Shown: positions 1 through 42,000 of the stretch, piece after piece
Layout: the number at the start of each line of letters is the position of its first letter
How positions within the stretch are numbered: position 1 is the first letter of the stretch
Source of the DNA: Owenia fusiformis
Lineage: Eukaryota; Annelida; Polychaeta; Sabellida; Oweniidae
NCBI GenBank assembly: GCA_903813345.2
Contig: CAIIXF020000001.1
Coordinates: 55,445,885-55,509,884 of the forward strand
Direction of reading: 5' to 3'
DNA length: 64,000 nt
Made by a program: the position numbers and the translations under genes
Notes under the pieces: model-generated
What the model was told of the DNA's origin: nothing
Databases searched by the model: none
What the model saw: the letters and a program-made list of their open reading frames with translations, nothing else

Positions 1-3000
1 TTACTCCATGTGGGGATACTACATGTGTTTCCCAGACACAAGTTAGTACAACTGATTCTGATGTGGTTGTGCATGCACCATACACTAATGATAGTGATGT
101 TGTTGTATTTGATGGTGAGGGTAACCCCATTGATTTCTCTGGAGATACTTGTACATCAAATTGCACATCTACATCTATTACTAGTGATGATGGTAGTACC
201 ATTGTTAGTCTTACAACAGGGAAGGAAGCAACAGTAAATGATGTTACTATTTCTCGTACTGGTGAAGATACATATGAGGTAACTGATCCATCAACTGGAA
301 ATGGATTTACTATAACTACAACAATAACATCTGATGGAATTACAAGCACAGATATTACAGATACAGATGGCAATTCTGTTGACCTCTCTCCTGGAAGTTC
401 TGAGACAATTGATGGTGTCACTCTGACTCAGGTTGATGATGATACCTATACTGTATCTTCTGGATCATCTGACAGTGAAATAACAATCAATGTCCCAACA
501 CCTACATCAACACAGGAAGGCACTGGAAGCACAACTACTATCACTGATGGAAATGGTAATCCTGTCAATACCTCACCTGGACAAAGTATAACTACTGGAG
601 ATGTAACTGTTTCTCAACCTACAGATGGCACAATTGTGATCAATGATGGGTCCTCTGATAATAGTTCCATAACAATAACAGATTCTGGAATAACTGGTAG
701 TGATGGCAATGTTATCAATATTTCACCAGGGAGCAACACCACTTCTGGCAATTTGACAATTGTGAGGATTGATGAAGACACATATGTTGTGGTTGATAGT
801 GATGGAAATGAGGTTACCGTCACTGTAACATCTCCCACCGAAACTGTCATTACTGATAGCAATGGTAACAAAGTTAATGTCTCTGGTGAATCTGCTGCAA
901 CAGTCGGAACATTGACAGTATCTCAAAATGCTGATGATACAATCTCAGTAACTGATAGTGGTACTGGCACAACTATTACAGTAACACCAACAGGCCTTAC
1001 AGACAATGATGGCAATAGTGTCAATCTGTCACCAGGGACTACTGCAGTAATCAGTGGTCAAACTGTAATAGAATTGATGAGGACACACTAGTCATTGTTG
1101 ATAGCACCTCTGAGAATGAGGTGACAATCACAATACCTGGACCTTCAGATCCTGTTTTGACTGATGAAAATGGAGATCCAGTCACTATTCCAACAGGTGG
1201 TTCAACCAATGTTGGCAATCTGGAGGTTGGTGAAACTGAAGATGGTGATGGATACACAATTGGAGATGGAGAATCTGGAACAACTGTTAATATCACTGGA
1301 GATGGTATTATTGATGGCGATGGAAATATTATTGACCTTTCAAATGGAGAAAGTACACAAATTGGTGATAATACTAACATCACAAGAGTGGATGATGACA
1401 CTGTTAAAGTAACTGATGTATCAACAGGAAGTGAAGTAACAGTAACAGTTCCAGAAACACCACCTGTTGATACAGGAAGTACATCTTCAATTGTTGACAA
1501 TAATGGCACTGTAGTTGATCTCAAAAAGGGAGAGAATACTACAATTGGAGATTTCGATATCACACAAGGTAAGGACAGTACCTCAATTACTGATAACTCT
1601 TCAGACAGTACAATTGTCATATCAGGAACTGGTATAACTGATGATGATGACAATATTATCAACATTTTACCAGGAGACAGTGTAACTGTAGGTGATATGA
1701 ATATTACAAGGTTGAATGAGGAGGAATATGAGGTAACAGAGGGATCTGATGGAAGCACTGTTACTGTTACAGTGACATCACCAACTGAAACTGTCATCAC
1801 TGACCAGCATGGAGATATTATTGACGTCTCACCTGGATCTAGTGATACAGTTGGTGGTTTGACCATTTCACAGGCTGATGATGGCACTATTACAATAACA
1901 GATGATGATACTGGAAGCAGTGTCACTGTTTCAGAGACTGGACTCATTGATGATAATAATAATGTGATCAATATTCCTATTGGTGGTTCAACAACAGTTG
2001 ATGATGTGACCATTAATAGAATTGATGAGGATACATATGTCATAACTGAAACATCTACGGGAACAGAAGTGACTGTCACAATCCCTACCACTTCAGTAAC
2101 AGGAACTACTGTCACAGATCAACAGGGCAATCCTATTGATACAACACCTGGATCTACCCAAACAGTTGGAGATTTGACAATCACACATGGAGATGATGGA
2201 AATGGCGATGGCAATGGAGATTCTTTGTCAATAACAGATGGAACTCCTGAGGGCAATGTTACAATTACTGACAATGGTATCATTGATGGAAATGGCAATG
2301 CTGTGAATCTCTCTCCTGGGGATACTTCAACAAATGGTAATATCACAGTTACTAGAATTGATGAGGACACACTGGTTGTTAATGACACTTCATCTGGAAG
2401 TACAGTCACAGTAACTATCCCACCAGCAACTGAAAATACTGTTACTGATGGAAATGGCAATGAACTTGATATTTCTGGTGGCAGCAACACTGTTGGAGAC
2501 TTGACCATTACACAAAATGCTGATAACTCTATCTCAGTAACAGATGGGTTATCAGATAGCACTGTTATTCTTAACTCCACTGGAGTTACTGATGGTGATG
2601 GTAATGCAGTTGTCATTTCAACAGGAGGCAGTGCAACAGTTGGTGATATGACCATCACCAGAGTAGATGGAGATACATTTACAGTATCTGATGGACTTTT
2701 TGAAGGCGAGGTAACTGTAACAGTTGTTGAGTCTACTAATGAGGGTGACTCTGGTTCATCAGTAACTGACAGTAATGGAAATGAGATTAATCTAGCACCA
2801 GGACAAAGCTCAACAGTTGGTAATATCACTGTTGGTCAAACTGATGATGGTTCAACCTCTATAACTGATAACTCTGGTAGTAATATTACAGTCACTGATA
2901 CAGGGATTATTGACGAAAATGGTGATTTGATTCACATAACACCAGGCACCAATGTTACAGTTGGTAATCTAACCATTACTCGTAATGATGAAGAAAACTA

Positions 3001-6000
3001 TACTGTACAAGATGGAGACTCAGGTGCTGAAATTACTGTTACTGTTCCAGAGTCAACAGACAAAGATACTGTTGTAACTGATCAACAAGGTAACCCTATT
3101 GATACTACACCTGGTAGTAGTGAAACAGTAGGAGATATGACTTTAACAACTGGTTCAAATGGTTCAGTTACAATAACTGATGAATCTTCTGGAAGTACAG
3201 TTTCAGTAACTGAAACTGGTATCACTAATACAGATGGTGATCTTGTGAACATCCCACCTGGAAGTAGTGAAACAATTGGTAATTTGACTGTGACAAGGAT
3301 TGATGAGAACACATATGTTATACATGATGGCTCATCTAACACTTCGGTTACTGTTACAGTTCCAAAATCAGATGAATCAGTTGTAACTGATGTACATGGA
3401 AACCCAGTTGATATTTCTTCAGGAGGTACTGAATCCATGGGTAATTTCACTGTTTCTCAAGACAATGATGATTCCATTACAGTTACTGATGACTCTGGAA
3501 ATACCATTATAGTCACTGGGGATGGACCCACAGATAGCAGTGGTAATCCATTTGACCTTTCTCCTGGGGAAAACACAACCATAGGAGATGTGACAGTTAC
3601 AAGGATCGATGAAGACACTTATGTTGTAACTGATACAACAACTGGGGAGCAAATAACTGTTACAGTACCAACAACAGAAACAGGTGATGTTGATGACCAA
3701 ATTACCACACCAGTTACAGTTATACTTGATAATGACACATCCATTACTAAAGATGGTGATGATATAATTATCACCAATTTGGGTGATGGATCTGAAACCA
3801 CCATTGGAGTGAATGGCGATGGATCCCTTGATGTTGGCATAACTGCTCCAAAAGATTCTTGTTCGAGTGGTGTAAGTGGAATGTCAGGATCTTGTGATGG
3901 TGATATCAACAATGAGATTCAAACTGGTGATGGTGAATATGTTGACCCAACTAATATAACATCATCAGACCTGAATGATATGGCTGAAACATTTGCAGAT
4001 AGTGGTAATGATACAAGCTTTGTGTATGAATACACAGATCCTGAAACAGGTGTAACCCATACTGAGCCAGAAACAATTGCTTCAAAGTGTCCTGTTGGTT
4101 ACTATGGAGCAGACTGTAGCTTCAAATTGGAAGACACAGCATCTGGAACTTCCACAACTTCAACAGCTGGAGTCAATGAAGATGGAACAGTTACTACATT
4201 TGATGGTATCACCTATACTGTTGGTGAATCTGGTGAATTTACACTTGTCAATACATCTGATATTGATGTTAGTGTTTGGCAGGTTCCTTGTGGTGAGACA
4301 GTTTGCACTACTGAAACCTCTGTAATGACTGATAATGGTGGATTTGTGATTAACACTGGCAAGGGAGATAGTGAAGATGATACAACCAAAGTAACTGACC
4401 ATGAAGGTAATCACATGACACTTGGAACTGGCAACACAACAACAGTTGGTGATATAAGTGTATCACAAACAGATGACAGCACAATTGTTGTTTCTGATGA
4501 ATCATCTGGAAGTAGTATAACTATCAAATCTGACGATTCAGGCATAAGCATCAATGATCATGAAGGTAACCCACTTGATTTTACTTCTGGAGATAGTGAA
4601 ACTGTTGGTGACTTAACTGTAACTAAATCTGATAATGGTACAATAGTAGTAACAGATGCATCCTCAAACAGTGAAGTAGCCATCACAGCTGGAAGTGGAA
4701 GTGGTGTCCCTGGTGGGAATTCAGTGACTGACAATGAAGGCAATGTAATAGACATCTCTTCAGGAGAAACTGCAACAGTTGGTGATGTAACTGTTTCCCA
4801 ACAAGGTAGTGGCAATTCTGTTCTTATTACTGATGGATCAACTGAAATCACAATAACAGCTTCATCTGGTGATGAACATACCATTACTGATAGTAATGGT
4901 GATACAATCAATCTTACTCCAGGACAGACTGAAACAGTTGGTGATATAACATTTAAACAAGTGGATGAGGATACATTTACTGTAACTGATATATCATCTG
5001 GAAGTCAAGTTGATGTACTGTTTCATTACCACTAATTGAAACAGTTATAACTGATTCAAATGGTACTGTTATAGATCTAATGCCTGGACAGTCTAAGACA
5101 GATGGTGATGTTACTATTAAACAATTGGACGGAGATTCATATATAGTAACTGAAACTTCTTCTGGTAGCTCAGTGATAGTTTCAGTGGTAGCACCAACTG
5201 ATGGAAGTGGAACTGGCTCTGATTCTGGGTCTGGATCAGGAACTGGCTCTGGCTCAGAGACCGGTGATGAAACAGGAACTGGATCTGATGGCTCTAGTAG
5301 TCTGTCAGTCAAAGTTAATGTACCAAAGACCGCATGCTCAGACAGTTTAGATACACTCACTGGAACATGTGACGGTAATCTTGACAATGAGTTCCAAGAT
5401 AGCAATGGCAATGACATTCCTATTGATCTTGTTACAGAGGAAAATATCAAAGAATCTGCTGCAACTAACAAGGTAGATCAATACTATTCTCCAGAAGCTG
5501 AAACATTCATTGGAAATGAAACTCATTCTATTGCTACTGTGACTGCTGAGGGTCAAATGACAAACTATGATGGTGAATCATACACATTAGTTCCAGGTGA
5601 ATATGTATTATCTGACAGTGATGTTGATATAACTATCAAGGTTGTACCATGTGGCAATTCAACTTGCATCAACCAAGTATCAGTAAGCACAGACTCTGAC
5701 AGCCTTACTTTCCATACACCATACCAGAGCACTATGGATGATATCATTGTGTTTGACTCAGATCTCAACTTGATCACAGTAACAGATACAACTGTACTTG
5801 ATAACATACCTGTGGATGTTGATGACACAAATGGTTATCATATTGTTAGTCCAAATGGCAATGATATAGTTGTTAGTGCAGGTAACAATGGTTACATAGA
5901 TGTAGCAATTATTTCTCTGAAATCAAACTGTGCATCAAGTGCTGTTGATTTAGCTGGATCCTGTGATGGTAATCAGTATAATGATGTCAAGGATTCCAGT

Positions 6001-9000
6001 AAGATCACTGGGAGCAGTGGTACTGACAATTGCAATGGCTGTTTCATTGACTCAACGGAGGAATCCAACTTTGTGTACACATATACCACATCAACTGGAG
6101 TTGTGTATGAAGAGCCAAAGGAATTCACTGGTACTTGCACATGTGGGTACTACATTGAAGACTGTTGTGTCACAGTTGTCCCAAGTCAAACAACAGATAC
6201 TGAATCTGAATCATCTATTGTTGATGGTACATTTACAACATTTGATGGTGTTCAATATGAACTAGACACAAGAGGTGAATTTGAATTCTATAACAGCTCT
6301 GAGACTGATGTCTACATAAGAATGACACCATGTGGACTCCAAGATGTTTGCCTTACACAAGTACAAGTATCGACCGAGACTGCATCTGTTGTTGTTCATG
6401 CTCCTTACACAAATACTTCTGACGCTGTTGTTTTTGGTGATGATGGTCAAGAAATTGACTTCACAAATGCCATCACAACAACACTTGATGAGAACACATC
6501 CATCACCAAATCAGATGATAATGAGTTTGTTGTTACAAATGCAGGTGATAACACTGAAACAACCATCACTGTCAACTCTGAGGGAACTCTTAATGTTGTT
6601 GTTACATCACTCATTAATTCATGCTCCAATGATGTGAGTGGGTTGGCTGGATCTTGTGATGACAACCTGAACAATGAATTAACAACTGGAAATGGGGATT
6701 ATATTGACCCAACCTCAGCATCATCTGAAGATATTACCAATGTGGCTGATGCATTCAATGTAGGAGGATCTTCTGACAGTGAATCACCAGACGGTGGATC
6801 TTCAGGCACTGATAACACGAACTTTGTGTACAACTATACAGATGATTCTGGTACAACATATACTGAACCAGAAACCATATTGTCTAGCTGTCCACCTGGC
6901 TTCTTTGGTGCTGATTGTAGTCTTGTCTTGGAAGATGAGAGCACAAACTCAGAAACACATGGAGTCGCTACAGTTAATGAAGATGGCACAATTACTACAT
7001 TTGATGATGTAACATATGATGTCACTATAACTGGTGAGTTCACATTTGCCAATACTTCAGATGGTGTTGTAAGTGTGAAGCTGGTGCCATGTGGAGATAC
7101 AGTGTGTGTAACACAAGTAAGTGTAGAAACAGACAAGGGTGCTGTTGTGGTCCATGTTCCATATGTTAATACAAGTGATCCTGTAATATTTGATCAAGAT
7201 GGTGATTCTGTAAACATTGCTCCAGGGTACAGTGTATATGTAGGTGATATTGCAGTTTCTCAGCTTAATAGTGAAACCTTTGTTGTTAAAGATCAAACTG
7301 GTAATGAAGTCACTATTACAATTATTCCTCCTCAAGATGGTTCCATAGATGAGACCACTGGTGAACCTGGAGTTAATACTGGAGGAACACATACCCTGAA
7401 AGTAAATGTAACAGTTGAAAATGATGGCTGCAAGTCACTAACAAACTCATTGTCTGGTTCTTGTGATGGAAATGTCAACAATGAATTCCAAGATGTCAAT
7501 GATAATGATGTCCCTGTTGGTATGATCGATGAAGATACATTGAATGTTGTTGCAGACCATAATTCTGTTAATGCCAATGAATCCAACTTTGTGTATACAT
7601 ACACTGACTCTGATGGTGAGGTTTATACAGAACCTCAGACATTTGAGAGCAAGTGTGTATGTGACTTTTACCTAGATAGTTGTTGTATAAGTGTTACAAC
7701 ACCATCAGATGATGGTTCACTTTCTACAACATCTATTAATGGTGAGAACAGCACGCTAACTACATTTGATGGATTGTCCTTCTCACTAGGAGATGGTGGT
7801 GAATTTGACTTTGTTGATGTTAGTGATATGAATGTCAGTGTTAAGACAGAAACCTGTTCAACTGGTACATGTGTTACACAAGTATTGGTACAAACTGGTG
7901 ATGGTAACATTGTGGTAGTTGCACCTGTTGATGAAGAAGGGAATCTCATCGGAGAAGGTGATGTTGTAGTTTCATCTGGTGGTGAAACAACATCATCTGT
8001 AGACACACTGACTTCAAACACAGTTGGCAATACCACAATGGAACAAAATGAAGATGGAGACCTGATCATTACTGATTCTGATGACACAGAAATAACTATT
8101 AGGGTTAGTGAAAATGGTGGTTTGGACATCTCTGTCTCTGTTGACAAAACTAATTGTGCAGATATGACTGGTCTAACTGGAAGTTGTGATGGTGACATTG
8201 ACAATGATGTTGTTATTGATGGAGAACCAGTCTCTGTTGCTGATATAACATCTGGTGTTCTTAGTGAGAATATCAACTGAAAGTATCATGAATGGCACTA
8301 ACATTGAGAGTGATAGTGAGACTGACAGTGATGGATTTGTTGATGATGTTGTTTCCATTGTTGTTACAACAACACCCATTCCAGAAAATACTACTGAAGA
8401 GCTTGTCTTCACTGACCCAGCACAATCACTATGTAGCACATTTGGAAGCCTCCTTGGATGGGGTGGAGACGATTGCAGTGTCCGCTGTGTAAGTGGTGAA
8501 TTCATTGATGGAGTCTGTACTTGTACTGATGGATACTGGGGTGAAGAATGTGACAAACTTTGCTACTCAGATGACAATGGTCCCTGTGGAGCTGGTAAAT
8601 GTAACACAACTACTGGTTTATGTATTGTGCCAATATCATACGATACATCTAGTAATGGAACAAGCTGTAATGAAGGCTGGTATGGAGCAGATTGCAGTGT
8701 TGCTAAATCTCAAGTTACTGGTAAGAATTCATCTGCTATTGCATCTGTTTATAGTTATGCTCATTACACAACGTTTGATGGTGCATCATTCACAATGGAT
8801 ACAAGAGGTGAATTTAAGCTGTTTGAGACTGAGCATCTCCATATTTTTGTGAGGCAAGTCCCATGTGGAACTGATGAAAATTCATGTGTAAACCAGGTCT
8901 GGGTGAAAACTTTAGATGGAGATGACCTTACTGTTAGAGCTCCATTTGAAGAAGGACTTGAACCTGTCTTATTTGATGAGGATGGTAGCTCTATTAATAT

Positions 9001-12000
9001 TGGTGTAAGAAAGGACCTTGGTTCAGATGTATGGGTGGAACAAGTTACTCCAACCATGTTTTCTGTTGCTGATTCTTCTGATACTGAAATTCTTATCAGA
9101 AACAGAGGTCGGTTCTTAGATTTGCAAATTACTGTTGACACAAGCCAATGTGGAACATCCATGAATGGTGTATTAGGAACATGTGACGGCAACATGGATA
9201 ATGACTTTAAAACAGCTGACGACACAACTATAAGCTTTGATGACATCAGCTATATTGGACTTGGTGATGTAGCTGCATATCACTCCATACCTGCTGAAGA
9301 GGAAACAGGCTTTGTGTATTCTTATGACAGTCCCGAGGGAACTTATTATGAGGAACCAAGGGATTATCAGGGAGCTGGACATTGTTTGGTATTCAACAAC
9401 ACAAGAGTGGAATCAAATCCTTTGACAACAATTGTTGATGAATCTTCAGATATTACAATTGAGTTCAAGTTTAAGGCAGGTGATGCAAATGATGCAGCTG
9501 GCACAATGGTTGCTTATACCACAGACAATACATTTGAAGTGATATACAATTCAACAGTTCAGATTCTAGTTGATGGTGTGTTACATGACACTAATTATGA
9601 ACCTACACCTGATGCCTGGGAACATATAACTCTTGGGTACGAGCGTGACACTGGTCTTCTTATTGTCTATGTTCTTGATGAAGCCAAAAATATCAATGTT
9701 GAAAGGCTTGATATTGGAACTGGTCATTTTGACACTGGTGGAATCATGTCCCTTGGAGGCTTGGTAGCCCAAGAGGGTCAATCAAGTGATGATGTTCCAC
9801 CTCCAACCTTCATAGGAAGAATTGATGAACTGAGAGTATGGGATACCACACTTGATGTGTACACAGTTCTTCAGAACTTTGATGCAGATATTGACACTGG
9901 ATACCCCAACCTTGTTGGATCCTTTGGATTTGATGAAGGATATGGAGACACAATTACTGATACAGTTGCTGGTGAGTTATTCATTATTCCAACATATGAC
10001 GGACCAAAATGGCAACTATCAGATGCTGAGCAAGAAACAACAACCAACACTAAGGCACTGACTGATTTAGATATTGCTGAGGCTATTGGTGAAGATGCTG
10101 TAGCATTGTGCAGGAATATTGTACTGAATAGTACATTGACAGAAGTATGTGGAGAACTTGGTGCTGCAACTGCTCAATCATACTATGTCTCTTGTCTTGA
10201 GGACTTGTATTACACAGGAGATTCATCAAATATTGTATTCTCTGTTGCTAGTTTCACAGCATACTGTCAGGAAACTTCTGAACCAGAAGAGCTTGATCAA
10301 GAAACATTGTGTGCCAATAATACACTACTGACTAATGATGCGATGTGTACTGAAAAGATGAACTGTCGCTTTGGTGAAGTAGACAGTGAAGACAATTGCA
10401 TTTGTTTCTCAGGTTTCTGGGGAGAGGACTGTGGTAGTGAATGCCCTGGAGGCATTGATAACATATGTAATGGACTGGGAACATGTAACATGACAGATGG
10501 TACCTGTAAATGTGAGCCTAAATTTAGTGATGAAAGCAATTGTGTAGAATGTGCTGAAGGCTGGAAGGGTTCAAGTTGTAACCAGTTTGACATAAAGGTC
10601 ACTGTCCCAGAAGAGACAATAAAAATGTGTCCTCTGGGTACAGCTGGAATTGACTGCTCCCTAGAAGTACCAATAGTACCTGTCACCTCTGTTAATGGCA
10701 CATCTACAGCTACGATCAATGGTGATGGATCATACACAACCTATGATGGTGTCACATATCATGTAAGTGTAAATGGAGAGTTCACTTTTGTTAATACTAC
10801 AAACACAAGTGTAACTGTCAGACAAACACCTGCAGATAATGGCGATAGTGTTGTTAACCAAGTGTGGGTATCTACTGGTGATTCAGATATTGTTATAAAA
10901 GCTCCTGTGGACAACACAAGTGATCCTATAATTGAGCATACAGTCCCGGGAGATGACACAGCTTATCCTGGTCTACCTGATGATGGCTCTGTTATGGTTG
11001 TAGATAACACTACATTCATTATTAACACTACATCTGGTGATGTTATTGAAGTAACAGTAGATCCAAATTCAGAATCTCTCACTGTTGAAGTAATTGTTGA
11101 CACAGAAACATGTGCTTATGGTAGCATGGGAATGGCTGGCTCTTGTGATGGTGACCTTGACAATGAGTTATCAACTACTGATCCAACAACAGGAGAAGAG
11201 AACTATATACCTTTGGATGAAATCACAAGTGATATCATTGATGATGTTATAGATGATCACAAGCTAACGCCAGAAGATGACTCACAATTCATCTACACAT
11301 ATGAAAACAATGGCACTGTTTATGAGGAACCAAGAACAATTGCTGACAGCTGTCCTGAAGGTTTTATTGGTGCAGATTGTAGTGTAGCAATGGGACCAAG
11401 TGGAACCAATGATACACATGGAACAGGATCAATTAAGAATGGCACATTTACCAATTTTGAAGGTGTTCAGTTTAACATATCCACCAAAACAGAACTGATG
11501 TTTGTGAATACAGACACTGTTACTGTTTATGTTAGAACTGTACCCTGTGGTGATGGCAATGCTTGTGTTACACAAGCATGGTTGGATACAGAAACTGAAG
11601 ATGTTGCTATATATATTCCTTATGGGGATAACAGCAACTTGCTTATTGCTGATGTTGACATCACTGGCACAACTAGTGCATCAACACCAACAACTGGTAC
11701 CACACTTGACATGGGTGTTGGTGACATCATTGATATAGGTACCCTAGAGAACCCCATTTTCATCAAAATGGTTACCAAGAGTGAATACATCATGACAGAT
11801 TCATCAGGAACTCAGATTACTTTTGAAAACAATGATGGACAGATGGATATTGTTGCAACAGTTGAAACATCAACCTGCCTTGGCACAAACATTGGTCTAC
11901 TAGGTCAATGTGATGGCAACCTCAACAATGATTTCCAGACTGGTAACAACAGTTATGTGCCTGTAGAGGTAATAACCTCTGATGGTATTGACTCTGTTAT

Positions 12001-15000
12001 TGACAATCTCACACCTAATGATACAGATACAACTGGTTTTGTTTATGTTTATGAGGCTGCTGATGGTACAATTATAGAGGAACCTGAAGAATTCCCAGAA
12101 GAATGCCCTGATGGTTTCACTGGAGCAGACTGCACTCGACAGACAGTTTCAGATACAGGAGCAACTGCTACACATTCTGTTGCTCATCTATCAGATGGTG
12201 CCAAGATGACAAACTATGATGGTGCGACATTTGACATCTCCAGTGGTGGTGAATACTCACTTGTTGAGTCTGACATTGTTGATGTGAATATCAGAACTGT
12301 GCCTTGTGGTGATTCTGTTTGTGCCAATCAAGTTTGGTTTGAAGAAGAGTTCAGTGACATTGTGTTACATGCTCCATATTCACCAGCTGGTGGCATAATT
12401 GTGTTTGATGCAGATGGCAATCAAGTAGGCATTTCAGGTGAAACTGTTGTTGGTTCTAATATGAACATAACTCGTGTTTCAACAGATGAATACCATATTG
12501 TGGATTCTGGAGATCAAACAGTTGTAGTGAAATTAGGTGGTAATAGACATCTAGACATCACAGTTGTAACTCCTAATGCTGCTTGTGCAACATCAACTGG
12601 AACACTTGTTGGCAGTTGTGATGGTAATCTGAACAATGATCTTGTCAATTCAGAAGGTGTAATAGTACCATATAGTCTTGCTTCAGATGAGCAGATAGAT
12701 GGTGCTGTGCAAACAACATATATTGATCCAAATGCGGAAAGCAATTTTGTATACACTTATGAAACACCAAATGGTGATGTATATGAAGAGCCCAAAGAGT
12801 TCACTGAATCATGTATTTGTGGATTCTATGCTGATCCTTGCTGTGTGAATATTGTTGACACTACCACTAATGATACCCATGCCCAAACATCTATTGTAAA
12901 TGGTACTTTCACCACTTATGATGGAGTGCAGTATGATATCGACGTCCGTGGAGAGTATCAGTTCTACAACAGCACAAACTCAAGTGTTTACATCAGAATG
13001 ACACCTTGTGGACAGGAAGCGTGTGTGACACAGATTCAGGTAGGAACAACTGATTCTGATATTGTTATTCATGCTCCATATACAAATGGGTCTGAAGCAG
13101 TTGTTTTCTACAATGGTACAACTCTTGATCTTGAGACAAATGAAACCGTATCTATTAGCTCCAGCACAACCATTAAACAAACAGATGACAATGAGTTTGT
13201 TATTGTAAATGAAGATGATGGAACTGAAACAACCGTTAATGTCAATGGAGATGGTAACTTGGATGTTACAATTGAATCACCGAAAGACTCATGTTCATCT
13301 GATGTAACAGGAATGTCTGGATCATGTGATGGTGACATTAATAATGAAATCCCAACTGGTGATGGAGACTATGTTGATCCAACAACAATAACTTCAGATG
13401 ATCTTACTAACATGTTTAATGCAAACAATGAGGGTTCATCTGGATCTAGTGATGAAACATCTGGATCTGGAAGTGGATCTTCTGGATCTGGAAGTGGATC
13501 TTCTGGTTCTGGAAGTGGATCAGGTAGCAACACTAATTTTGTATATGAGTACACAGATGAAAATGGCACAACATACAGTGAACCAGAAACCCTTGCACCT
13601 AGCTGTCCTGTAGGATTCTATGGTGCTGATTGTAGCATTGCATTGGCAGATACTACTACCAATACTGGAGATAATTCAACAGCTGGAGTGAACCCAGATG
13701 GATCAGTCACTACATTTGATGGTGTTACCTACAATACAAGTACCCCTGGAGAGTTTGCACTTGTGAACACTACAGATTTGGATGTTAATGTTTGGCAAAC
13801 ACCTTGTGGTGATGAAGTATGTACAACAGGAACAACAATTAACACTGGTGATGGTGGAATAACTATTAATACTGGTGATTCAGGATCTGGTAGTTCTGAA
13901 GTTGTTGACAGTGATGGAAATGAAGTAGATTTGACAACAGGTGACACAAAGACAGTTGGTGATTTGACTGTCTCACAAGATGCTGATAACTCATACACAG
14001 TAACTGATGATTTGGGTAATTCTGTTACAATCACTGGAACTGGTGCTGAAGATGGCAATGGTAATGAAGTTGACGTTTCACCTGGACAGACCAAAACTGT
14101 AGGGTAATATTACAGTTGGACAGACAGATGATGATACCTTTGTTATATCATCTGGTTCATCTGAGGTTACCGTAACTGTTCCTGCAGAAACTGTAATCAG
14201 AGATAATGATGGCAATATCATCGATACATCTGCTGGGGAAGATACAACTGTTGGTGACATGACAGTCTCTCAAGACTCAGATGGTAATGGTTATACTATA
14301 ACTGGTACAGATACCTCAATTTTAGTCACTGATACTGGAATCACAGATAGCAATGGTAATCCTATTGATCTGTCCCCAGATGGTACCACAACCATTGGTG
14401 ATCTGACAATTACTCAAGGGGATAATAATACTCTGGTTATTACAGATGAGTCTGGAGAGGAAATAACTGTTATAGTACCTCAAACTCCCCCTGCAGTCAT
14501 TACTGATGACAAGGGCAATGAAATCGACCTTGATGCTGGGGAGACAGAAACTGTTGGCAATGTTACAATTACCCGTGAGGATGAAAATACCTACACAATT
14601 GTTGATAATACAACAGGCAGTGTGGTAAAAGTGACTGTTATTCCACCAACATCTGGAACTGGATCTGGAACAGAATCAGGTACTGGATCTGGAACAGAAT
14701 CAGGTACTGGATCAGGATCAGATTCAGGAACTGGATCTGGAACAGGAACTGGATCTGATACAGGAACTGGATCTGGAACTGATACAGGAACTGGATCTGA
14801 TACTGGAACTGGATCTGGAACTGGAACAGGATCTGGTGGATCAAGTCTCCAGATTGAAGTCACTGTACCTAATGATCAGTGTAATTCTAGTACAAGTACT
14901 CTAACAGGCTCTTGTGATGGAGATTTGGACAATGAGTTCCAAGATACCAATGGCAACAACATTCCAATTGATCAAGTCACTGAAGATAATGTGATCGAAT

Positions 15001-27000: not shown

Positions 27001-30000
27001 ACTCAAGAAGATGATGACACATTCACAATAACTGACGGATCTGGTGATACAATTACTGTGAATACAACGGGTATTACTGATGCTGATGGTAACAAGATTG
27101 ACCTTTCACCAGGTGATAATGTCACACTTGGCAATGTGACTATTCATCAAACACACAAAGATACAGTTGTTGTTACTGATTCAGCAACAGGTACTGATGT
27201 TGCTATTACAGTTGTACAAGAAGACGGCTTGACTGATCAATATGGAAATCCAGTTGAGACTGAATCACAATCAACAGGAACAGTTGGAAATATGACTATT
27301 ACCCAAGACAATAGTGGGTCTGTCACTATAGGTGGATCCTCTACTGGTGACAATTCATCTACCACAGTTACTGTTACTGGAACAGGTGTCACTGACTCTG
27401 ATGGTAACATCATTGACATTGCTCCTGGATCTAATGTAACAGTTGGTGATGTGACCATTACTCGGGTGGATGAGGACACATATACTGCACATGATGAATC
27501 ATCTAATACCACTGTTGCTATAAATGTGGAAACGCCATCTACAACAGGTGTTTCTGATGGCAATGGTAATGACCTTGATCTTTCAACTGGAGAATCTGAA
27601 ACAGTTGGTGATATGACCATTACCCAGGATGGTGACAACTCATTCTCTGTAACTGACAGTTCCAACCAAACTATCACTGTGAATGCAACTGGCATAGTTG
27701 ATAACAATGGTAATGAGGTTGACCTAGCAATAGGAGACAGCATGACAGTTGGAGATGTAACTATTCACAAGGTCACAGATGACACTATTGTGGTAACTGA
27801 TGATTCCACTGGAAGTGATGTAACTGTTACAGTTGTACAAGAAGATGGGTTAACTGACCAATACGGTAATCCAGTTGAGACAACTAACCAAACTAGTGGA
27901 GCAGTTGGAAATATCAAAATCACTCAAGACAGCGATGGTACAACCTCCATAACTGGTGGATCATCTGGAGACACTATAACTGTAACAGACACTTGCATTA
28001 CTAATGATGATGGAAGCATAATTGATGGTGTTTCCCCAGGCAATAATGTAACAGTTGGTGATGTCATCATAGAACAAGTGGATGATGATACATTTGTCAT
28101 TCACGATACATCAACTGGTGATCAAGTCACTGTTACAATTGAAGTACCAACATCAACAGGTGTCACAGATGGAAATGGTGACTCAGTTGAAATATTGCCA
28201 GGTGGAGACATGGTAACTGTTGGTGACCTTAGCATAACACAGCTTGATAGTAGCACATTCGTTGTAACAGACGATGAAACTACCATCAAAATCACTGCAG
28301 TTGGATTAATAGATACTGTCAATAATGTAACATTTGATGTTCCTCAAGGAAGCACAAGAACTGAAGGAAATATATCAGTTCATAGAGTACATGCTAATAC
28401 ATATGTGGTCATAAATGATAATACAGGAGATGAGGTAGCTGTGACCATCATTCCAAGTACAGGTCTTACTGATTCCCTTGGAAATGAGATTCCAGTTACA
28501 TCACATGAAACTGGAACAGTTGGTGACATGACAATTACTCATACTGATGATGGTTCTTATTCCATTGGTGATGTATCATCTGATACAACTGTGTCAATAA
28601 CAGGAACTGGTATCACGGATGGCAATGGTGATCTAATTAACCTCGCGCCAGGACAGAATACCACCATTGGAGATGTAACTATCATTCAAAATGATGAAGA
28701 TACTTACACTGTTATTGACAGTTCTGGAAATGAAATCACTGTAACTGTTGAGATACCTACAACCACTGGTGTTACTGATGGTGATGGAAATTCAGTTGAT
28801 TTAACCCAAGGTGGATCACAGACTGTTGGTGACCTGACTGTCTCACAAAATACCAGTAGTAGCATTGTTGTAACAGATGGCTCCTCAGGAAGCACCATTA
28901 CAGTTGATACAACAGGCATCACTGACACAGATGGAGAACCAGTTGATCTTACACCAGGAACTAATACAACAATTGGAGATGTGACAATTCACCATGTCCA
29001 TGATGATACGTATGTCATAACTGATGGATCAAGTGGAAGTGAAGTTGTTGTCACAGTTGTTGAACCAACAGGATTAACAGATTCTGATGGCAATACCATT
29101 GATGTTGTTTCTCAAGAAACTGCTCATGTTGGTGATTTGACTATCAATCAAGATAACAATGGCACATTCACCATAACTGATGACTCATCAAACACCTCCA
29201 TTTCAGTGACAGGAACAGGTATCACAGATGCAAATGGTAACATTATTAATCTCTCCCCCGGACAGAATATTACAACTGGTGATATTACCATCACACAAGT
29301 TGACGAAGATACATTCATTATACATGATGGATCTTCTGACACTGGTGTAACAGTAACTGTACCAACTACAACAGGAGTTACTGATGGATCTGGAAATGAA
29401 GTAGATCTTACCTCTGAAAGTGGAACAACTGTGGGTAATTTGAATATTACTTCCCCAGATAGTGGAAATACAATCTCTGTTTCTGATGGAACTGGCAATT
29501 CTGTTACAATTAATGGCACTGGTGTCATTGATGGATCTGGTAATGCTGTAGACATCGGACCAGGCAACAGTACAACTATTGGTGATGTTACTGTCGAACA
29601 GGTTGATGGTGATACATATGTTGTTACTAATGGTGATGGTGATGAGGTAGTAATTACCGTTCCAGTAACAGAAACACCCAGTGTAACTGATGAAAATGGA
29701 AATGATATTGATACATCAGGAGAAGGAGCAACCATTGGTGATATGACAATATCTCAAGGTGATGATGACACATTTACTGTAACTGATGATTCTGGTAGCA
29801 ACATTACAATAACTGGAAATGGCATTACAGATGTTAATGGAGATGTTGTAAACCTTTCTCCAGGAGAGAGTGTAACAGTTGGTGATGTAACCATAACACA
29901 ATTGGATGAAGATACATTTACCGTAACCGATTCTTCAACTGGAGAGGAAGTTACTGTTACAGTACCAGTCACAACAGGAGTCACAGATGGAGATGGAAAC

Positions 30001-33000
30001 ATAGTTGATACTACATCAGGTGAACCTACCATAGTTGGTGATATAACCATTGAGGAGAATAATGATCAAGGCACATTTACATTAACAGATGGATCATCTG
30101 ATACTACCATTTCAATAAATGGAGTTGGTGTTTCTGATAGTGATGGAAATTCTGTCAATGTTTCACCAGGAGAGAGTACAACGATTGGTGATTTGACTAT
30201 TACTCATGTTGATGGTGACTCTTGGCAAGTAACTGATGGATCCTCTGGAACTGAGGTGACTGTCACTGTCCCAATACCTGATACTACTGGGGCAACTGAT
30301 ACTTCAGGAAATCCAATAGATCTAACATCTGAGGATGGTGCAACTGTAGGTGATATGACAATCTCTCAAGATAGTGATGACACAATTACAGTTACAGATG
30401 GATCATCCAGTACCAGTTTAACAATCACAGACTCAGGAATAGTTGATGGCAATGGCAATGTGATTGATATTCCAGTTGATGAAAGCATTACCATTGGTGA
30501 TGTAACAATAACTCGTATCAATGATGATACAGTCATCATATCTGATGGATCATCTGGAAGTGAGGTTGCAGTAACTGTTGTTTCAACTCCAGGCATTACT
30601 GATGTTGATGGAAACGAGATCACTCTCACACAAGAAGATGTTGCAACACTTGGCAATGTTAGCATTGGAACTCAGAATGGTGGAAATACATTCTCAGTAT
30701 CTGATACTTCCGGAACCAATGTAACAGTTACGATACTTGGTATCACGGATGAGGATGGAAATGTCATAGATCTTTCACCAGGAGAAAATACAACAGTTGG
30801 TGATGTAACTATAACAAAAGTGGATGATGATACTTATACTGTAACTGATGGATCTACTGGAAGCACTGTGACTGTAACACTTACAAAGCCAACTTCCACT
30901 GGTGTCACTGACCATGAAGGCAATAATGTTGATATCACTTCAGATGGTGGTGCAACAGTTGGTGACCTGGAAATTACATCAAATGAGGAAGAGAGTGAGA
31001 TTACAGTATCTGATGGCTCCGGCAATACAATAACAGTCACTGGAACTGGTGTCACCGATACAGATGGTAATGTAATAGATCTTCCTAAGGGAGAAAATAC
31101 AACAATAGGTGATGTTACAATTGAGCATGTGTATGATGACACATATGTTGTAACTGATGGCTCAACTGGAAGTGAAGTTGCAGTGACTGTAGTAACAACA
31201 CCTGGTGTTACAGATGGTTCTGGTAATTCTGTAAACTTAACATCTGAAACAGTTTCAACAGTTGGAGATATCAATATCATGACTCAAAATGATGGGAACT
31301 CATACACTGTTGGTGGTAGTTCTTCAAACACAAACGATACAGTTCATGTTGGAGGAACAGGTGTCACTGATGGAGAAGGTAATGTTATTGATATGAAGGA
31401 AGGTGATAGCACAACAATTGGTAATGTAACAATTACTAAACTTGATGATGACACTTACTCACTTGTTGATGATTTAACAGGTGATGAGGTTATTGTCACT
31501 GTTGATGTACCTACATCCACTGGTGTCACAGATGCAGATGGAAATGTAATTGATCTAGAGTCTGGTGGAACTACAACAGTTGGTGATATCTCCATTACAG
31601 AATCTGGAGATGGAGAGTCATTTACTGTTACTGATGGATCATCAGACACTACTATTGTAGTAACTGAATCTGGTGTGACTGATGAAAATGGCAATTCTAT
31701 TGACCTTCCTACTGGAAACAGCACAACAATTGGTGATATTACCGTCAGTCATGTAAATGATGACACAGTGGTTGTAACCGATGGCTCTTCTGGAAGTCAG
31801 GTTGCAGTGACAGTGGTTACAACATCTACACCAGGTGTCACTGATGAAACTGGTGATGCAGTTGACCTAACGCCAGAAGAAGTTGCAACTGTTGGAGATA
31901 TGACCATTGTCAATCAGAATGATGGAAACACCACAACAGTATCTTCTGGGGACACTGATTTGACAATTACAGGAACAGGAATTACAGATCAAGATGGCAA
32001 TTCAATAAATCTCACACCAGGAGCAAATATCACTGTCGGTGATATAACTGTCAACAAAATTGATGATGACACCGTTGTTGTACAAGATGGAAATGGCAAT
32101 GAAGTAACAATCACTGTATCCCTACCTACAACAACTGGATTAACAGATGAATCTGGTAATCCCATTGATATCTCAACTGGCGATAGTACAACTGTTGGTG
32201 ATATTAGTGTTACCCAAGATTCAGATTCCTCATTTATGCTTGAAGGTCCATCTGGCACTAGTGTTTCAATTAATGAAAATGGCTTAGTTGTAGATGGTAA
32301 TCAAGTGGATCTGAACCAAGGAGATGGAATTGAAGCTTCAGAACTGAACATCACTAGACCTCTTGATGACACATATGTTATATCTACTGGTTCTTCTGAA
32401 GTTGCAGTTACTGTTGTAACACCACCTGGCATTACAGATGAAGATGGTAATGATGTAACTCTCTCACCAGAAACAGTGGCAAATGTAGGTGATATGGAGG
32501 TTGTCACTCAGAATGATGGCAACACTAATGTCATCTCAGATGGCTCTGGCAATGAAGTAACCATAACATCAACAGGTGTACTTGATGGTGATGGAAATGT
32601 AGTTGACATTACACTTGGTGAAACAACAACAGTTGGTGTTATGACTGTTACACAGACTGATGACGATACTTATGTTGTAACAGGTCCTACTGGTGACGAG
32701 GTTACTGTCACACTTGATATACCAACAACAACAGGGGTAACTGATTTGAATGGTAATCCCATTGATACATCATCTGGTGATGGTGCTTCAGTTGGTGATA
32801 TGACCATATCCCAAGATGGTGATGACACAATCACAGTAACTGATGACTCAACTGGTAATACTGTCACAATCACAAATGAAGGAATAACTGATGAAAATGG
32901 TAACACAGTCGATCTTGCTCCTGGTGAGCAGACTACAATTGGTAATATCACGATTCATCAAGTTCATGATAACACTGTTGTGATAACTGATGGGTCTGGT

Positions 33001-36000
33001 AATGAGGCAGCTGTTACTGTTTCTACACCATCTTCACCTGGTCTAACAGACTCTGATGGAAATACAGTAGAGTTGGTTTCGGAACAAGTTGCATCAGTTG
33101 GTAACATGACTCTGACATCACAGGATGATGGTACAACATACACAATAGACAGTACAACAACTAATAGCTCTATAACTATAAGAGGAACTGGTATCACTGA
33201 TGCTGATGGTAACTTGATTAATCTCACACCAGGAACAAATGTAACATCTGGAAATGTGACTATCACTCAAGTAGATGAAAACACCTATGTGATTACTGAT
33301 GGAACATCTGGAAGTGAAGTTACAGTTTCAGTTCCATTGCAACACCAAACTGGCACAACAGACTTAGATGGCAATGAAATTGTTGTTACAAAAGATGATG
33401 ATGCTACAGTTGGAGATTTGACCATTTCTCAAGACAAGAGTGAAACATACACAATAACTGATGGTTCCTCTGGTAGCAGTGTTACATTTACTAGCAGTGG
33501 TATCACTGATGGAGATGGTAATACACACAATCTGGCTCCTGGAGAGAACATCACAATTGGAGATGTAACAATCTATAAGACTCATGATGACACCTATGTT
33601 GTAATGGATGGTTCATCTGGAAGTGAAGTTGTTGTGACTGTCATTCCACTTGTTTCCACTACTGTGACAGATGAGAATGGCAACACACATGAACTGTCTG
33701 TTGGGGAAAGTGCTACTGTTGGTGATATCACCATCACACAAGATGATGAAACCACATATTCTGTGTCTGATGGTACCTCAACAGGTAATATAACAGTTAC
33801 AAGTTCTGGAATAACCGATAGCAATGATAACCCAGTTAACCTTGTACCAGGTACACAGGCCATAGTCGGAGATCTGACTATCACTCAAGTTGATGAAGAT
33901 ACCTATGTTATAATTGATGGGTCTAGAAATGAAATTACAATAACATCTCCTGAACCTCCAGTTTTGGATACTGTCTTAACTGATGAATCTGGTAATGTAG
34001 TAACTACAGTGCCAGAGGATGTTGCAAATATAGGAAATATGACTTTTGTAACACAAGACGGCGGAGACTCCTATTCAGTTATGGATAAGACTACAGGTAG
34101 CTCTGTTACAGTTGCTGGGACAGGCATCACTGATGGTAGTGGTAATCCAGTTGACCTCTCACCAGGGGAAACAATAACTGTTGACAATATTACTATAACA
34201 CAAGTAGATGAGGACACATACACTGTTACTGACTCATCAGGAACTGAGGTTGTAGTTGAGGTCACAATACCTTCATCATTTGTAAAGGATGGCAATGGCA
34301 CTGTGGTCGATCTATCATCAGGTGAAGAGGCAACAGTTGGTAACTTGACTATCAGTCAAGAAGACACAGATTCTTATTCAATTGTTGGTGACTCTGGTAA
34401 TGCTGTTATAGTCAATGGAAGTGGAGTGATAGATAGTAATGGCAACACAATTGACCTTTCACCAGGAGGAGATACGACCGTCGATGGAGTAACAATCACC
34501 AAGGTTGATGAGGATACCGTCGTGATAACTGATGAATCAACTGGCAGCAATGTAACAGTTACAATAAATACTCCAACTGAACCTGGTGTAACTGACAATG
34601 ATGGAAATCCAATTGATTTATCTTCTGGAGATACATCAACAGTCGGTGGTATATCAATCACTCAAGAATCTGATTCTGGAGATGAAGGAAACACTGATGG
34701 AGAGACATCATTTAGTGTTGGTGATAGCTTATCTGGAGAAACTTCTACTATAACTGGCTCTGGTGTCACTGACAGCAATGGTAATACAGTTGACCTGTCA
34801 CCAGGTGAACAAACTACCGTTGGTGATGTAACAATAGAAAAACAGGATGATGAAACATACATTGTAACTGATGAAGATGGGAACCAAGTGATCATTACTG
34901 TCCCAGAAACTCCTGCCCCAGGTAGTGATACAGATACACTTCTTACTGATGAATCAGGTAATACTGTTGACTTAGTATCAGAAAAGGTTTCGACTGTTGG
35001 CAATATGACACTTGTTACATCAGATAATGGTGACTCTTATTCAGTAAATACTGGTTCAGGGGATACAATTTCAGTTACAGGTACAGGTGTTATTGATAGT
35101 GATGGTAATGTCATACCAATCACAACAGGGGTGAATACAACAATTGATGATGTCACTCTGACAAAGTTGGATGATGACACATTTGTATTAACTGACAATG
35201 CAACAGGAAGTGTAGTAATTGTTACAGTTGATGTACCTCTCACATTTATAACTGATGAAAATGGCAATGTTGTTGATATCTCAACTGATGGAAGCACCAC
35301 TGTTGGTGACATGACTGTCGATCAAGACAGTCATGAAGAAGGTGGAGATACCTACACAATATCAGATGGTTCGTCAGGAGAGACTGTTACAGTTACAGGT
35401 AAAGGTATCACTGATGCTAATGGTATTCCTATTGAAACAACGGTAGGTGAGAATGTAACAGTTGGTGATGTGACAATCACACAAGTTGATGAAGACACAT
35501 ATACCATAACTGATGGATCATCAGGAAGTGTGATTACAGTGACTGTTACACCACCACCTCCACCCACAACAGTCCTTACAGATGAATCTGGAAATGTTGT
35601 TAATCTTACATCCACAGAAGTTGCAAATGTAGGAGACTTGACTATTGCTACTGATGATGGTGGTGATAGTTTCACTGTTGATGGTGGATCATCTGGTTCA
35701 TCTGTAACTATAACTCAGACTGGAGTAACTGTTACTACACCACCAACAGAAGGTGGTGTAACTGATGGAAATGGCAACCCTGTTGATGTAACACCTGGCG
35801 ACCCTACAACAGTTGGAGATATTACAATTACTCAAGAAGCAGATTCTGGAACTGGAGATGCTACAGGTACATCATTCACAGTTGGTGATAGTTCTTCTGG
35901 GGAAACCATAACTATAACTGGTTCTGGCATTACTGACAGCAATGGTGAGACAGTTACCCTTGCTCCAGGAGAGAATGTAACAGTTGGAGACATAACCATT

Positions 36001-39000
36001 GAGAGGCAGGATGATGGAACATACGTTGCAACAGATGGATCTGGTAATGAAGTAACAGTCACAGTTCCAGAAACGCCTGGTGTCACTGATCAAGATGGAA
36101 ACACTATTGATCTTTCAGATGGAGGCTCCGCAATTGGTGATATAACAATTACTCAGGGAACTGATACTGTTAGTGGAGATAGTGAATTCACAGTTGGTGA
36201 TAGCTCTTCTGGAGAATCTGCAACTATAACTGGTTCTGGTGTTACTGACAGCAACGGTAATGTGGTTAACCTGTCACCAGGTGAACAAATTACAGTTGGT
36301 GATGTAACAATTGAGAGACAGGATGATGACACATACATTGTTACTGATGGAGATGGCAACCAAGTGACTGTGACAGTACCAGAAACTGGTAGTGATCTAG
36401 ATCTATCACCTGGTCAGACTACAACAATAGGAGGTGTAACAGTTCAACAGACCGGTGATAATACCTATGTTGTTACATCACCATCTGGAGATGAAGTAAC
36501 TGTTACAGTACCACCATCACCTGATATAACGGATGGAGATGGAAACCCAGTAGATGTCACACCTGGATCAAGCAGTACAGTCGGAGATATGACAATTACT
36601 CAGAATTCTGGAACAAGTTTCTCAGTAGTTGATGGCTCATCAGACAGTAATATCACAGTTACTGATTCAGGAATCATTGGAAGTGATGGTAATATCATCA
36701 ACATTCCAACAGGAACAAGTATTACTGATGGTGATTTGACTATCACACGTGTTGATGAAGACACTTATGTGATAACTGACTCATCCTCAGATAGTGACAT
36801 CACAGTAAATGTTCATATTTCTGAAGTTACTGATCCAGTTATCACAGACCAACAAGGAAATACAGTTGATCTCATATCAGGAGAAAGTACAACTGTTGGA
36901 GATATAACTGTCACACCAAGTGATGGAGATAATATTGTTATTGGGGATGCTTCAGCCAACAGCTCTGTTACCATTACAGGAACAGGTGTAACTGATACCA
37001 ATGGTGATGTCATCAATACTGCACCAGGAACTAGTGTAACAGTTGGCGATATCACTGTAACTCGTGTTGATGATGACACATATGTTATCACAGATGAAGA
37101 AGGCAGTGCAGTCACAGTCACAGTTCCAGTAACAACAACTAATGAAACAGTTATTACTGACCAACAAGGAAATGTGATTGATACTTCATCAGGTGATGCA
37201 ACAGTTGGTGACATAACCATATCGCAACCTGGAGGAAATGATGGCACAGTCTCAATAACTGATGGATCATCCGGTAGCAACATCACAATTACAGGAACTG
37301 GAATTACTGATACTAATGGAACTCTGATTAATATTGCACCAGGTAGTGATGCAACAGTTGGCGATGTAACTATAACACGTATTGACGATGACACATATGT
37401 TGTTTATGATAATTCCTCTGATAGTGGTGTCACAGTAGATGTACCCCCTACAACAGAAACAGAATCATCTATTGTTGATGCAAATGGAAATCCAGTTGAC
37501 TTGGTATCAGAGAAAGTAGCAACAGTTGGTAATATGTCCATTACACAAAATTATGGACAAAATTATTCAATTAACACTGGGTCCTCTGATGGTACAGTCA
37601 CAGTAACAACCTCTGGTGTAACGGATGCTAATGGTAACACTGTCAGTATCTCAATTGGAGAAAATATAACCATTGGTGATATAGTCATTACCAAAACTGA
37701 TGATATCACTTATAATGTAAATGATACTGCAACTGGAAGTGAAGTTGATGTCACTGTAGTGCCAACTACTATAACTGGTGATGATGGAAGTACTATTGAT
37801 CTTACATCTGGTGATGCAACTGTTGGTGACTTAACCATTAGCCAAGGTGATGATGATATAATCACTGTCTCTGATGGTTCAAATACTATTACAGTTACAG
37901 AAACAGGTATCACAAATAGCAATGGTGATATCATCACTGTATCATCAGGTGGTACAACGACTGATGGTGATATTACAGTTACACGTGTTGATGAAGATAC
38001 ATATATAATAGATGATGGCTCTGGCAATCAAGTAACTGTAACCGTCCCACGGTCAACTGATACAGAAACAGTTATAACTGATGAACAAGGTAATGTGATT
38101 GATGTATCATCTGGAGGTAGTACAACTATTGGAGATATGACTATCACAGAAGGTGAAGGAGATTCATACACAATAACTGATGAGACTACTGGAGACAGTT
38201 TATCTGTTACAGGAGCTGGAATCATTGATAATGATGGTAATGTTGTCACCATACCATCTGGAGTCAGTGATGGTGTTGGTGATGTCACAGTTTCTCGCGT
38301 TGATGAGGATACATATGTAATAATTGATTCCTCATCTGGTGGTGAGATAATTGTCAATATACCTACATCAACAACAGATGAAACTAGTGTTACTGATGCA
38401 CAGGGTAATCCTATTGTTGTTCCTGATGGAGGAACTACCGTCATTGGTGATGTAAGTGTCTCAACTGATGGTAATACTACCTCAATAACTGATGGTTCTT
38501 CTGATACCACTGTTGTTGTAACTGAATCAGGCATCACTAGCTCTGATGGCAATGTTGTTACCATTCCACCAGGCACAAGCACAACTGATGGTGATATTAC
38601 CATTACTAGAGTGGATGAAGACACATATACAATAGATGATGGATCTGGCAATGTGATCACAGTCAGTGTTCCCTCAACATCAACAACAGAAACAGCAATT
38701 GTTGACCAACAGGGTAATGTACTGAATATATCATCCGGATCAAATCAAACTGTTGGAGATTTGACTTTGGCACCAAGTGATGGAGACTCATACACTATTA
38801 CTGATGGAACTTCTGATACAACTATCAATGTGACACAAACTGGAATAACCACAAGCGATGGAACCAATGTAAATATTTCTCCTGGAGGTAGTACAACAGA
38901 TGGTGACATCACTATAACCAGAGTGGATGATAATACTTACACAATTGAGGATGGATCATCAGGAAGTGGGGTCACAGTTAATGTGCCTTCAACTGAAACT

Positions 39001-42000
39001 GGTGGCCTAACTGACTCAAATGGTAACACTGTTGATGTCACTGTACAAGAGACTGCAACACTTGGTAACATGAGTATTACACATGGTGATGGTGACTCCA
39101 TAACAGTAACTGATAGTTCATCCGGAGACTCATTTGCAATAACAGTAACAGGCATCACTAATATGATAGGTAGTGTAATCAATATCTCACCAGGAACATC
39201 AACAACAATTGGTGGGATTACAATCTACCGTGTAGATGGAGATACCTATGTTATAACAGATGAATCAACTATGACTCAAGTAACAGTTACAGTGGTTACA
39301 ACTACAGTGACAAATATCATATCTGGTTTGTTGGGAGGAGATGGAAACCAAATTGATCTCACCTCACAGGAAACTGGATCAGTAGGTGACTTGATTGTTA
39401 CACATGATGAAACTGGTTCATATGAAATAACTGATGAGTCAGGCAATTCAGTTGATATCACAGAATCTGGCAGAATCACAGATGAGAATGGAAATACAAT
39501 TGACATTTCTGTAGGAGGAACTGTAACAATAGGAGATGTAACTATCACTCAAGTTGATTCAACAACTTATCTGGTCACAGATGGATCTGGTAATGAGTTA
39601 ACAGTTACAATAACACCACCTGAAGAGCCAGATACAGGGTTAACTGATGAAAATGGCGATACAGTTAGTGCTGTGTCACAGGAAACAGCAAATGTTGGTA
39701 ACCTAACAATTGTTCACAGTGACAATGGTACTTATTCAATATCTGGTGAATCTGGAAATGCTATTCAAGTCACAGGCTCAGGTTTAACTGATCAGAATGG
39801 AGATTCACTTGATCTGACTTCTGGCACCACCACAATAGGTGATGTTACAATAACCCAGGTAGATGAGGCAACATACACAGTCACAGATGCCAATGGAAAT
39901 GATGTGACAGTCACTGTTGTGCCAACTTCTGGTCTGACTGATGCCGATGGTAACCCTGTTGGTACTGAATCTCGTGAAAGTGCAACAATTGGTGACCTAA
40001 CCATATCTGAACAAACAGGTGGCAGTTATTTAGTTACTGATAAGTATACTGGATACTCCATAACAATCACCATAATTGGTGTTCAAGATATACTTGGAAA
40101 TCCAATTAATCTTGAAACAGGAACATCTGTTACCCTCTTTGGATGGACCATTTATCGAGTGAGCATTAATGTGTATATAATCACTGACTCATCTGGAAAT
40201 GAAGTAACAATCACAACACCAACTCCAGAAAGTGACTCCATTGAAGGAGGAACAACAGCTGAAGATGTTACAAGCATTGGTCAACTTGACATGACTGATA
40301 TCATTCAAATTGTACAAACAAGCTTTGCTGTTCCAGCAAATGATTCAACATTTGTGTATGAATACATAGGCCCAGATAATGTATCCTATTCTGAAGAACA
40401 GGTGTTCACTGGTGATGATATCCTTGGTAAATTGCCTGAGACTAACATTAATCCAGACTATGTTGAACCTGAACCCGAACCAAAACCAGAGGAGCCTGAA
40501 CCCATTAAGACTCCATACTACGCTGCATTTATTGGACAAGGACATATACAGAGCTTTGATGGCACCTTGTACGAATTTACAACACCTGGAGAATATTACT
40601 TCATAAGGTCAACTAACACCATTAAAAACCCAGATATTAAGATCTTCACTGAAACTTGCCAGGGAGGAGCAAACTGCCTCAAGGCAGTGTCCTTTGAGCA
40701 AAATGGAGAACAGTTGATCGTTAGAGGTGCATACACTGATAGTGATCCAGCTGTTATCTTCGTGAATGGTGTTGAAGACACAACTGGTTTGAAAGATATT
40801 GTGACAGCTAACTTCAATCTGACAATGGATGGATTTGGTATTTACACGCTGATAACATCTACTGGTATTGAAATCAAAATCAGATCTAACAACCAGTACC
40901 TCAGTATTATGACCAAAGTGCCTGAATATCAAACTGGTAAGATAAATTCAATTGCTGGAATGGTTGACACCACGGGCAATAATACTGCTGACTTCCCTAT
41001 GGAGCCAGAAGATCTTGTTGTTTCACTAAATGAAGCTGCATTTGAAATTCTGTATTCTAACACAACAACTTTCCATGAGGAGAAGGACGCTGGAGACAAC
41101 TCTGGATACTGTGTTGTATTGAATGATGCTGTCATGGCAACCAGTATAATTGATGATCTATTCATACCAGATGTAGATATCACCGTAGAGCTCTTTGTGA
41201 AACCATTCTCAGATGTAGGTACAATACTGGCATACAGTTATGAATCAACATTTGTGATATACCTTAATGGCACTCTGAAGGTGCAAGTTGGTACGCAGAT
41301 ATTTGATTCTCAGTTTGTTCTTGATACTGGTGTTTGGTGGAGGATTATGACTGTGTATGAGTCCAGGAAGAACATTATGATGATATATCTTGTCTCATCT
41401 ACTGGTGCAACCAAATACAGGACATTCAACATTGATGATGGCAATCTTAATGCATTCACAGCTGGTGGTACTGTTGTCATGGGACAATGGATGCCAGCTT
41501 TTGATGACACTATTCCATTGCCTCCTAAAGAACCATACCATGGAGCTCTTGATCAGGTTCATATTTGGCACAAGGCTTTCTCATATTCAGAGATCACCTA
41601 TAGTGCTAGACAGAGTACACGTCTTCTGGAGGAAGGAACAGTTGCATATTGGTCATTCAATGAAGGCAAAGGATTCAGAGTTGATGACTCATTGGGTGAT
41701 TCAGATCTAATGATAATTACATTCTATGGTGTCACATGGCAGTTCTGCTATGCCCCTATTGGAGCTGAACCAATCAGTGAATCATATTCATTTGATGATC
41801 CTGTTCTTGAGGCTTCTGCTGATAACCTTTGTACAACTGGAATCAACACCATTAAGGCAGTTGCTGAGGCCTCTCTTGGAAGCGCTGTGTTCCAGTACTA
41901 CAAAGCAGTTTGCATGCTACAGGTTGCTGTATCTGGAGATTTGGTAACTTCAACTGATGTTATAGTACCATTAGCTGACTTGATTCAATTGGCACTTGAT

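Follow-up and report, generated by a model that had tools for sequence, protein, structure and literature searches.

A tandem beta-repeat homologous to the interior of the VWD domain in a giant cell-surface protein gene of Owenia fusiformis

In the mucins MUC2, MUC4 and MUC5AC, giant surface proteins whose exons are very large, long Ser/Thr-rich PTS tandem repeats lie by VWD domains. The origin of repeat proteins from subdomain pieces has mostly been argued on ancient, blurred cases. Beta-propellers were amplified from single blades; their unit is a four-stranded beta-meander, and its amplification and differentiation are ongoing (PMC9218822, PMC3797127).

The locus described here lies on a 62 Mb contig (CAIIXF020000001.1) of the 498 Mb genome of the annelid Owenia fusiformis. 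The window is the whole stretch of DNA analysed (64,000 nucleotides); positions refer to it, negative ones lie upstream, and the arrays and modules with coordinates are on its forward (+) strand. An iterated profile retrieved approximately 285 units of about 47 residues (median spacing, 52 residues). Ten arrays, with 5 to 88 units each, hold 274 of them, and two of these 274 are remnants of a host module's own interior. The modules share their fold and the place of the interior strands with the VWD domains (PF00094) of gel-forming mucins, VWF and FCGBP (Z 19.9). Unlike in those proteins, the interior is amplified here into arrays of 5 to 88 units, and C8 and TIL, which gave no match at E 0.01 after the VWDs in the scanned pieces, are replaced by EGF-like and LamG domains and a membrane anchor. 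As in MUC2, MUC4 and MUC5AC, long tandem repeats adjoin VWD domains in a giant surface protein, but PTS repeats are disordered, whereas the present units have conserved hydrophobic positions, are predicted to fold as beta strands and are apparently derived from the VWD itself. The four-stranded beta-meander as amplification unit is shared with the beta-propellers (PMC9218822, PMC3797127), and blade amplification is the nearest known process; in contrast to propellers, the unit here would come from a non-repetitive, non-propeller domain and form open-ended strings of up to 88 copies, inside or beside copies of the source domain.

Our main reading, to which we assign a probability of about 80%, is that the unit is a duplicated four-stranded piece of the VWD interior that was amplified first as a dimer and then spread by recombination. 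A broader version, which we favour with less assurance, is that the VWD domain budded off its four-strand interior as a self-standing repeat, which reached more than 270 copies, re-entered copies of its parent at three loops and now forms a long beta rod in an exon of nearly 70 kb. If true, a folded domain has produced a new repeat out of its own interior, with about 270 copies in one giant cell-surface protein, and the VWD family, familiar from proteins of clotting and mucus, would gain a further way of growing. The parent domain, single-copy forms, and short and long arrays coexist in one gene, which makes the step from domain to repeat testable. Regarding precedents, the first-pass annotation had stated that no described VWD family is known to expand from within, and no such description was found in the open-access papers searched.

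Homology between array units and the VWD interior

The annotation had pointed to an interior segment (12400-12540) of an unexpanded B-type module (12209-12629, within the stretch 12155-12700), and the segment VFDADGNQVGISGETVVGSNMNITRVSTDEYHIVDSGDQTVVV is indeed present there at 12401-12529. The comparison was kept free of circularity by training a profile HMM on the 88 units of array R4 alone, since R4 lies outside any VWD core. This R4-only HMM was searched against 21 unexpanded modules, with 4,200 shuffled modules as the null, among which the best score was 15.5 bits. Significant, in-register matches were obtained with the interiors of the two A-type modules that carry exactly one array-grade unit or one unit and a Gly/Ser linker (6949-7521, unit 7186-7320, and 23665-24300, unit 23911-24051; 47.6 and 43.0 bits, modules at about 6950 and 23719, respectively), of the complete module directly before R4 (26002-26550, interior 26272-26412; 27.8 bits), of the B-type module named above (20.8 bits) and of the D-type module at 24532 (17.2 bits). 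The B-type module at -23538 and the D-type module at 7759 scored 14.7 and 13.1 bits, neither being significant alone; most of the remaining interiors were matched at the same place under the null maximum, and those of modules 5560, 10736, 11450 and 25245 scored at or near chance. The order of elements in the array units is that of the unexpanded interior, as had been claimed, and it is this interior that the R4-only HMM matches.

When the R4 units were aligned by hhalign with 17 unexpanded modules, a set that omits the two A-type modules (the most array-like ones), the match fell exactly at the interior (E 3.3e-10, score 51.5), while the controls stayed far lower: 12.1 with the N-terminal halves of the modules, 15.3 with the modules reversed, and no more than 15.4 over 100 column shuffles. 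The profile test proposed in the annotation thus gave a significant match in register with controls at chance, and the homology of the array unit of about 47 residues with the four-strand interior of the VWD modules holds.

The A-type interiors (43-48 bits) are far more array-like than the B, C, D and E interiors, and gene conversion from arrays into them could heighten their likeness. The direction of copying would then be partly reversed, array units having overwritten the A-type interiors, with near identity as a secondary feature. We regard this as doubtful, since the non-A interiors match as well (E 3e-10 without A), which makes the homology independent of the A-type modules; moreover, conversion would alter the degree of likeness, not its origin. 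For derivation of the unit from the VWD interior, the reading that we prefer, the sequence matches lie within this gene. No VWD match, and no family beyond chance, was obtained with 22 array units against Pfam, nothing beyond chance was found with the unit alignment against PDB sequences, and hhalign of the units with six VWDs of other proteins (including MUC2, FCGBP and three from this genome) scored 7.6, within the null. The link to the canonical VWD therefore goes via the fold and the modules of this gene. Genome-wide, the unit is confined to this locus, while VWD domains occur in many genes; a search with a 365-aa array piece for bacterial and archaeal relatives found none.

Places of the arrays and proposed spread of the units

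The insertion places were mapped by matching array flanks to a split module profile, and seven of the ten arrays split the VWD interior. Five of these are in A-type modules, which read as an N part up to profile position ~57, the array, a last unit at ~73-114, a Gly/Ser linker and a C part at 111-142. Across A-type modules the unit counts are 1, 5, 6, 15, 17 and 21; the arrays of 5 and 6 units lie at 4391-5187 (module 4193-5379) and 13901-14639 (module 13709-14924), as defined by the unit HMM and the split profile. The other two are in C-type modules, split at profile position ~77, inside the interior. These are R1, with 23 units matched by the unit HMM (177-3667), whose host parts at about -93 to 136 and 3668-3904 align to module profile positions 1-110 and 76-142, respectively, and R3, with 47 units and a remnant of the host interior at 23236-23316 (16080-23316). 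Two B-type modules that lie just upstream of the window carry their array before the HAPY strand, with the interior of the host complete or almost complete. R4 (26623-40215; 88 units in alternating pairs) stands after the VWD core and not within it, beginning after the GSCDGN of the complete module 26050-26503, which aligns to module profile positions 48-142, and before the FVYEY segment.

The proposal that R1-R4 lie exactly at the VWD interior was therefore right for 177-3667, 4391-5187, 13901-14639 and 16080-23316, but R4 follows a complete module. Likewise, a location between HxPY and GSCDGN is correct for the A- and C-type arrays, wrong for R4, and not that of the B-type arrays, which occupy a different loop. 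Growth of the domain from within with both ends kept fits the A-type architecture and is not general, as the B-type arrays and R4 stand elsewhere with the host interior complete and the units in C-type modules are unlike the host interior. Low-complexity Gly/Ser/Thr linkers with DNA repeats of 18-42 bases were seen at 13439-13521 and 14651-14836, the latter after the last unit of an A-type array.

Linker lengths alternate in the long arrays, and with two profiles built from the two unit types of R4, most units of the other arrays were labelled as alternating as well. As this two-type dimer alternates in nearly every array, it seems older than the spread of the arrays. Among single interiors, 12 of 15 scored better with the second unit type and three with the first; the preference of the two A-type modules for the second type amounted to 16.5 and 17.5 bits. 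This bias, which is expected if the second type is the older one, gives a direction. Tandem Repeats Finder at score 100 reported no array whose period is close to 141 bases; as DNA, the arrays are thus not recent. Between similar units, the differences by codon position (0.29, 0.22 and 0.52) suggest constraint on the units; the pairs were picked by protein identity, so these values are not counted as evidence.

It is conceivable that, as the annotation had proposed for all arrays, every VWD domain grew alone through tandem copying of its interior. The A- and C-type arrays are at the interior with both domain ends retained, and the series of 1, 5, 6, 15, 17 and 21 units among A-type modules would fit such growth. 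However, one dimer pattern is common to all long arrays, and the B-type arrays and R4 stand elsewhere beside complete interiors. Furthermore, the units of R1 and R3 have mean identities of 0.371 and 0.377 to A-array units but 0.244 and 0.273 to C-type interiors, respectively, so that these arrays probably did not grow from the interior of their host. Independent growth is already disfavoured for B, C and R4, and we consider it unlikely as an account of all arrays. The units are short, which makes trees weak; at the level of sequence comparison, the shared dimer, the identities of the C-type arrays relative to their hosts, and the placement of the B-type arrays and R4 favour one founding amplification with later spread over separate growth per domain.

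Under the founding amplification that we favour, the array unit would have arisen by duplication of four antiparallel strands belonging to the interior of a VWD domain. It would have been amplified at first as a dimer of two units, most likely within the interior of an A-type module or next to it, and recombination within a single huge coding exon may then have spread strings of dimers. The recipients would have been C-type modules, at the corresponding site, and related modules, at two other loops. The founding site, the means of spread and the order of these events are inferred.

Predicted folds of modules and arrays

PF00094 was found above its curated cut-off in the piece 8255-14104 (E 2.2e-29) and in two other pieces (E 3.4e-13 and 3.2e-14), and the module sequence contains the motif GSCDGNxNN, a putative counterpart of the C-terminal CGNxNG region with its calcium site and disulphides in VWD domains. 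Profile and fold both identify the modules as VWD domains, yet they are not D assemblies (VWD-C8-TIL), as no C8 or TIL was found in the scanned pieces. The one-unit A-type module at 23665-24300 was modelled by AlphaFold2 from an alignment of modules of this gene (mean pLDDT 84.9), and the unit was the best-predicted part (~95-97). VIA-align placed this model closest to MUC5AC (Z 19.9, rmsd 2.2 A, 159 residues); the next 22 rows were all VWD proteins (other mucins, VWF and FCGBP) or RGMB, and unrelated folds reached Z 5.9. By this prediction, an array-grade unit therefore belongs integrally to a normal VWD fold. The structural test suggested in the annotation accordingly yielded a predicted VWD fold with the unit inside the core, and, together with the in-register profile match, it gives good support to the repeat unit being an amplified inner piece of the VWD.

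The model of a six-unit array piece (28771-29682; mean pLDDT 88.5, pTM 0.64) showed the four strands of every unit in the same order. Its best VIA matches were chains of MUC5AC, VWF and MUC2 covering D1-D2 (Z 8.1 to 6.7), with rmsd values of about 22-25 A, as two domains were spanned, and Z near the level of common arrangements; WD40 proteins followed at Z 4.9. Foldseek ranked beta-propellers first, but with TM 0.10-0.15 and rmsd ~18 A. Both results fit a four-stranded meander, and the packing between units is fixed by neither. That an unrelated beta-repeat domain (a propeller blade or an adhesin repeat) was inserted into VWD loops and resembles the interior in composition (strands rich in T, S, D, G, V and I) is very improbable: the Foldseek ranking, the strongly biased composition and the lack of a sequence match to VWDs of other proteins would speak for it, but the Foldseek similarity is low, the match is confined to one register and one place, composition-preserving shuffles, reversed modules and N-terminal halves gave no comparable score, and the predicted one-unit module is an intact VWD fold.

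The giant gene around the arrays

The coding stretch of the giant gene is open from about -25458 to 44322 (contig positions 55420427-55490206), nearly 70 kb with the appearance of a single exon, which would be exceptionally long if real as one exon. It is not one open frame: nine small frameshifts, at 1.09, 5.03, 8.26, 14.1, 18.3, 19.6, 20.4, 21.7 and 23.0 kb, are the sole interruptions. All nine lie within 22 kb, none being found in the 26 kb and 21 kb on either side, and the open frames beside the frameshifted part encode 8,849 and 7,135 residues. At every frameshift the homology resumes immediately in another frame; the frameshifts are probably assembly errors, and a broken allele is possible. 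Units were extracted from each open piece separately, with no frameshift repaired.

The types of VWD module recur in a repeated order (B, C, A) between -23.5 and 26.5 kb. The gene shows a nesting of strand-level repeats in domains and of domains in multi-domain repeats. By profile, the protein comprises PF00094 (VWD), EGF-like and LamG-like (Laminin_G_3) domains, and its sequence indicates a single membrane anchor near 54.9 kb with a cytoplasmic tail behind it. Cysteine occurs once among the 274 array units, the net charge is near -7 per unit, an N-glycosylation sequon is present in 161 of the 274, and Asp, Gly and hydrophobic positions are conserved. This composition and the membrane anchor suggest that the arrays may be long, stiff, acidic, possibly glycosylated or calcium-binding rods that space folded modules at the cell surface. 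Such cysteine-free beta rods would keep apart the VWD, EGF and LamG regions of a surface protein anchored in the membrane.

The regions 50950-51050 and 54840-54960 contain basic RRKR/RSKR motifs similar to furin sites, as well as the single hydrophobic membrane anchor with its cytoplasmic tail. Upstream exons (-50000 to -29700) encode many EGF-like modules as well as repeated, glycine-rich domains of unknown family, and are probably the N-terminal part of the giant protein. A separate neighbouring gene at 58971-60446 encodes an enzyme of glycosyltransferase family 10 (fucosyltransferase; E 4.4e-50).
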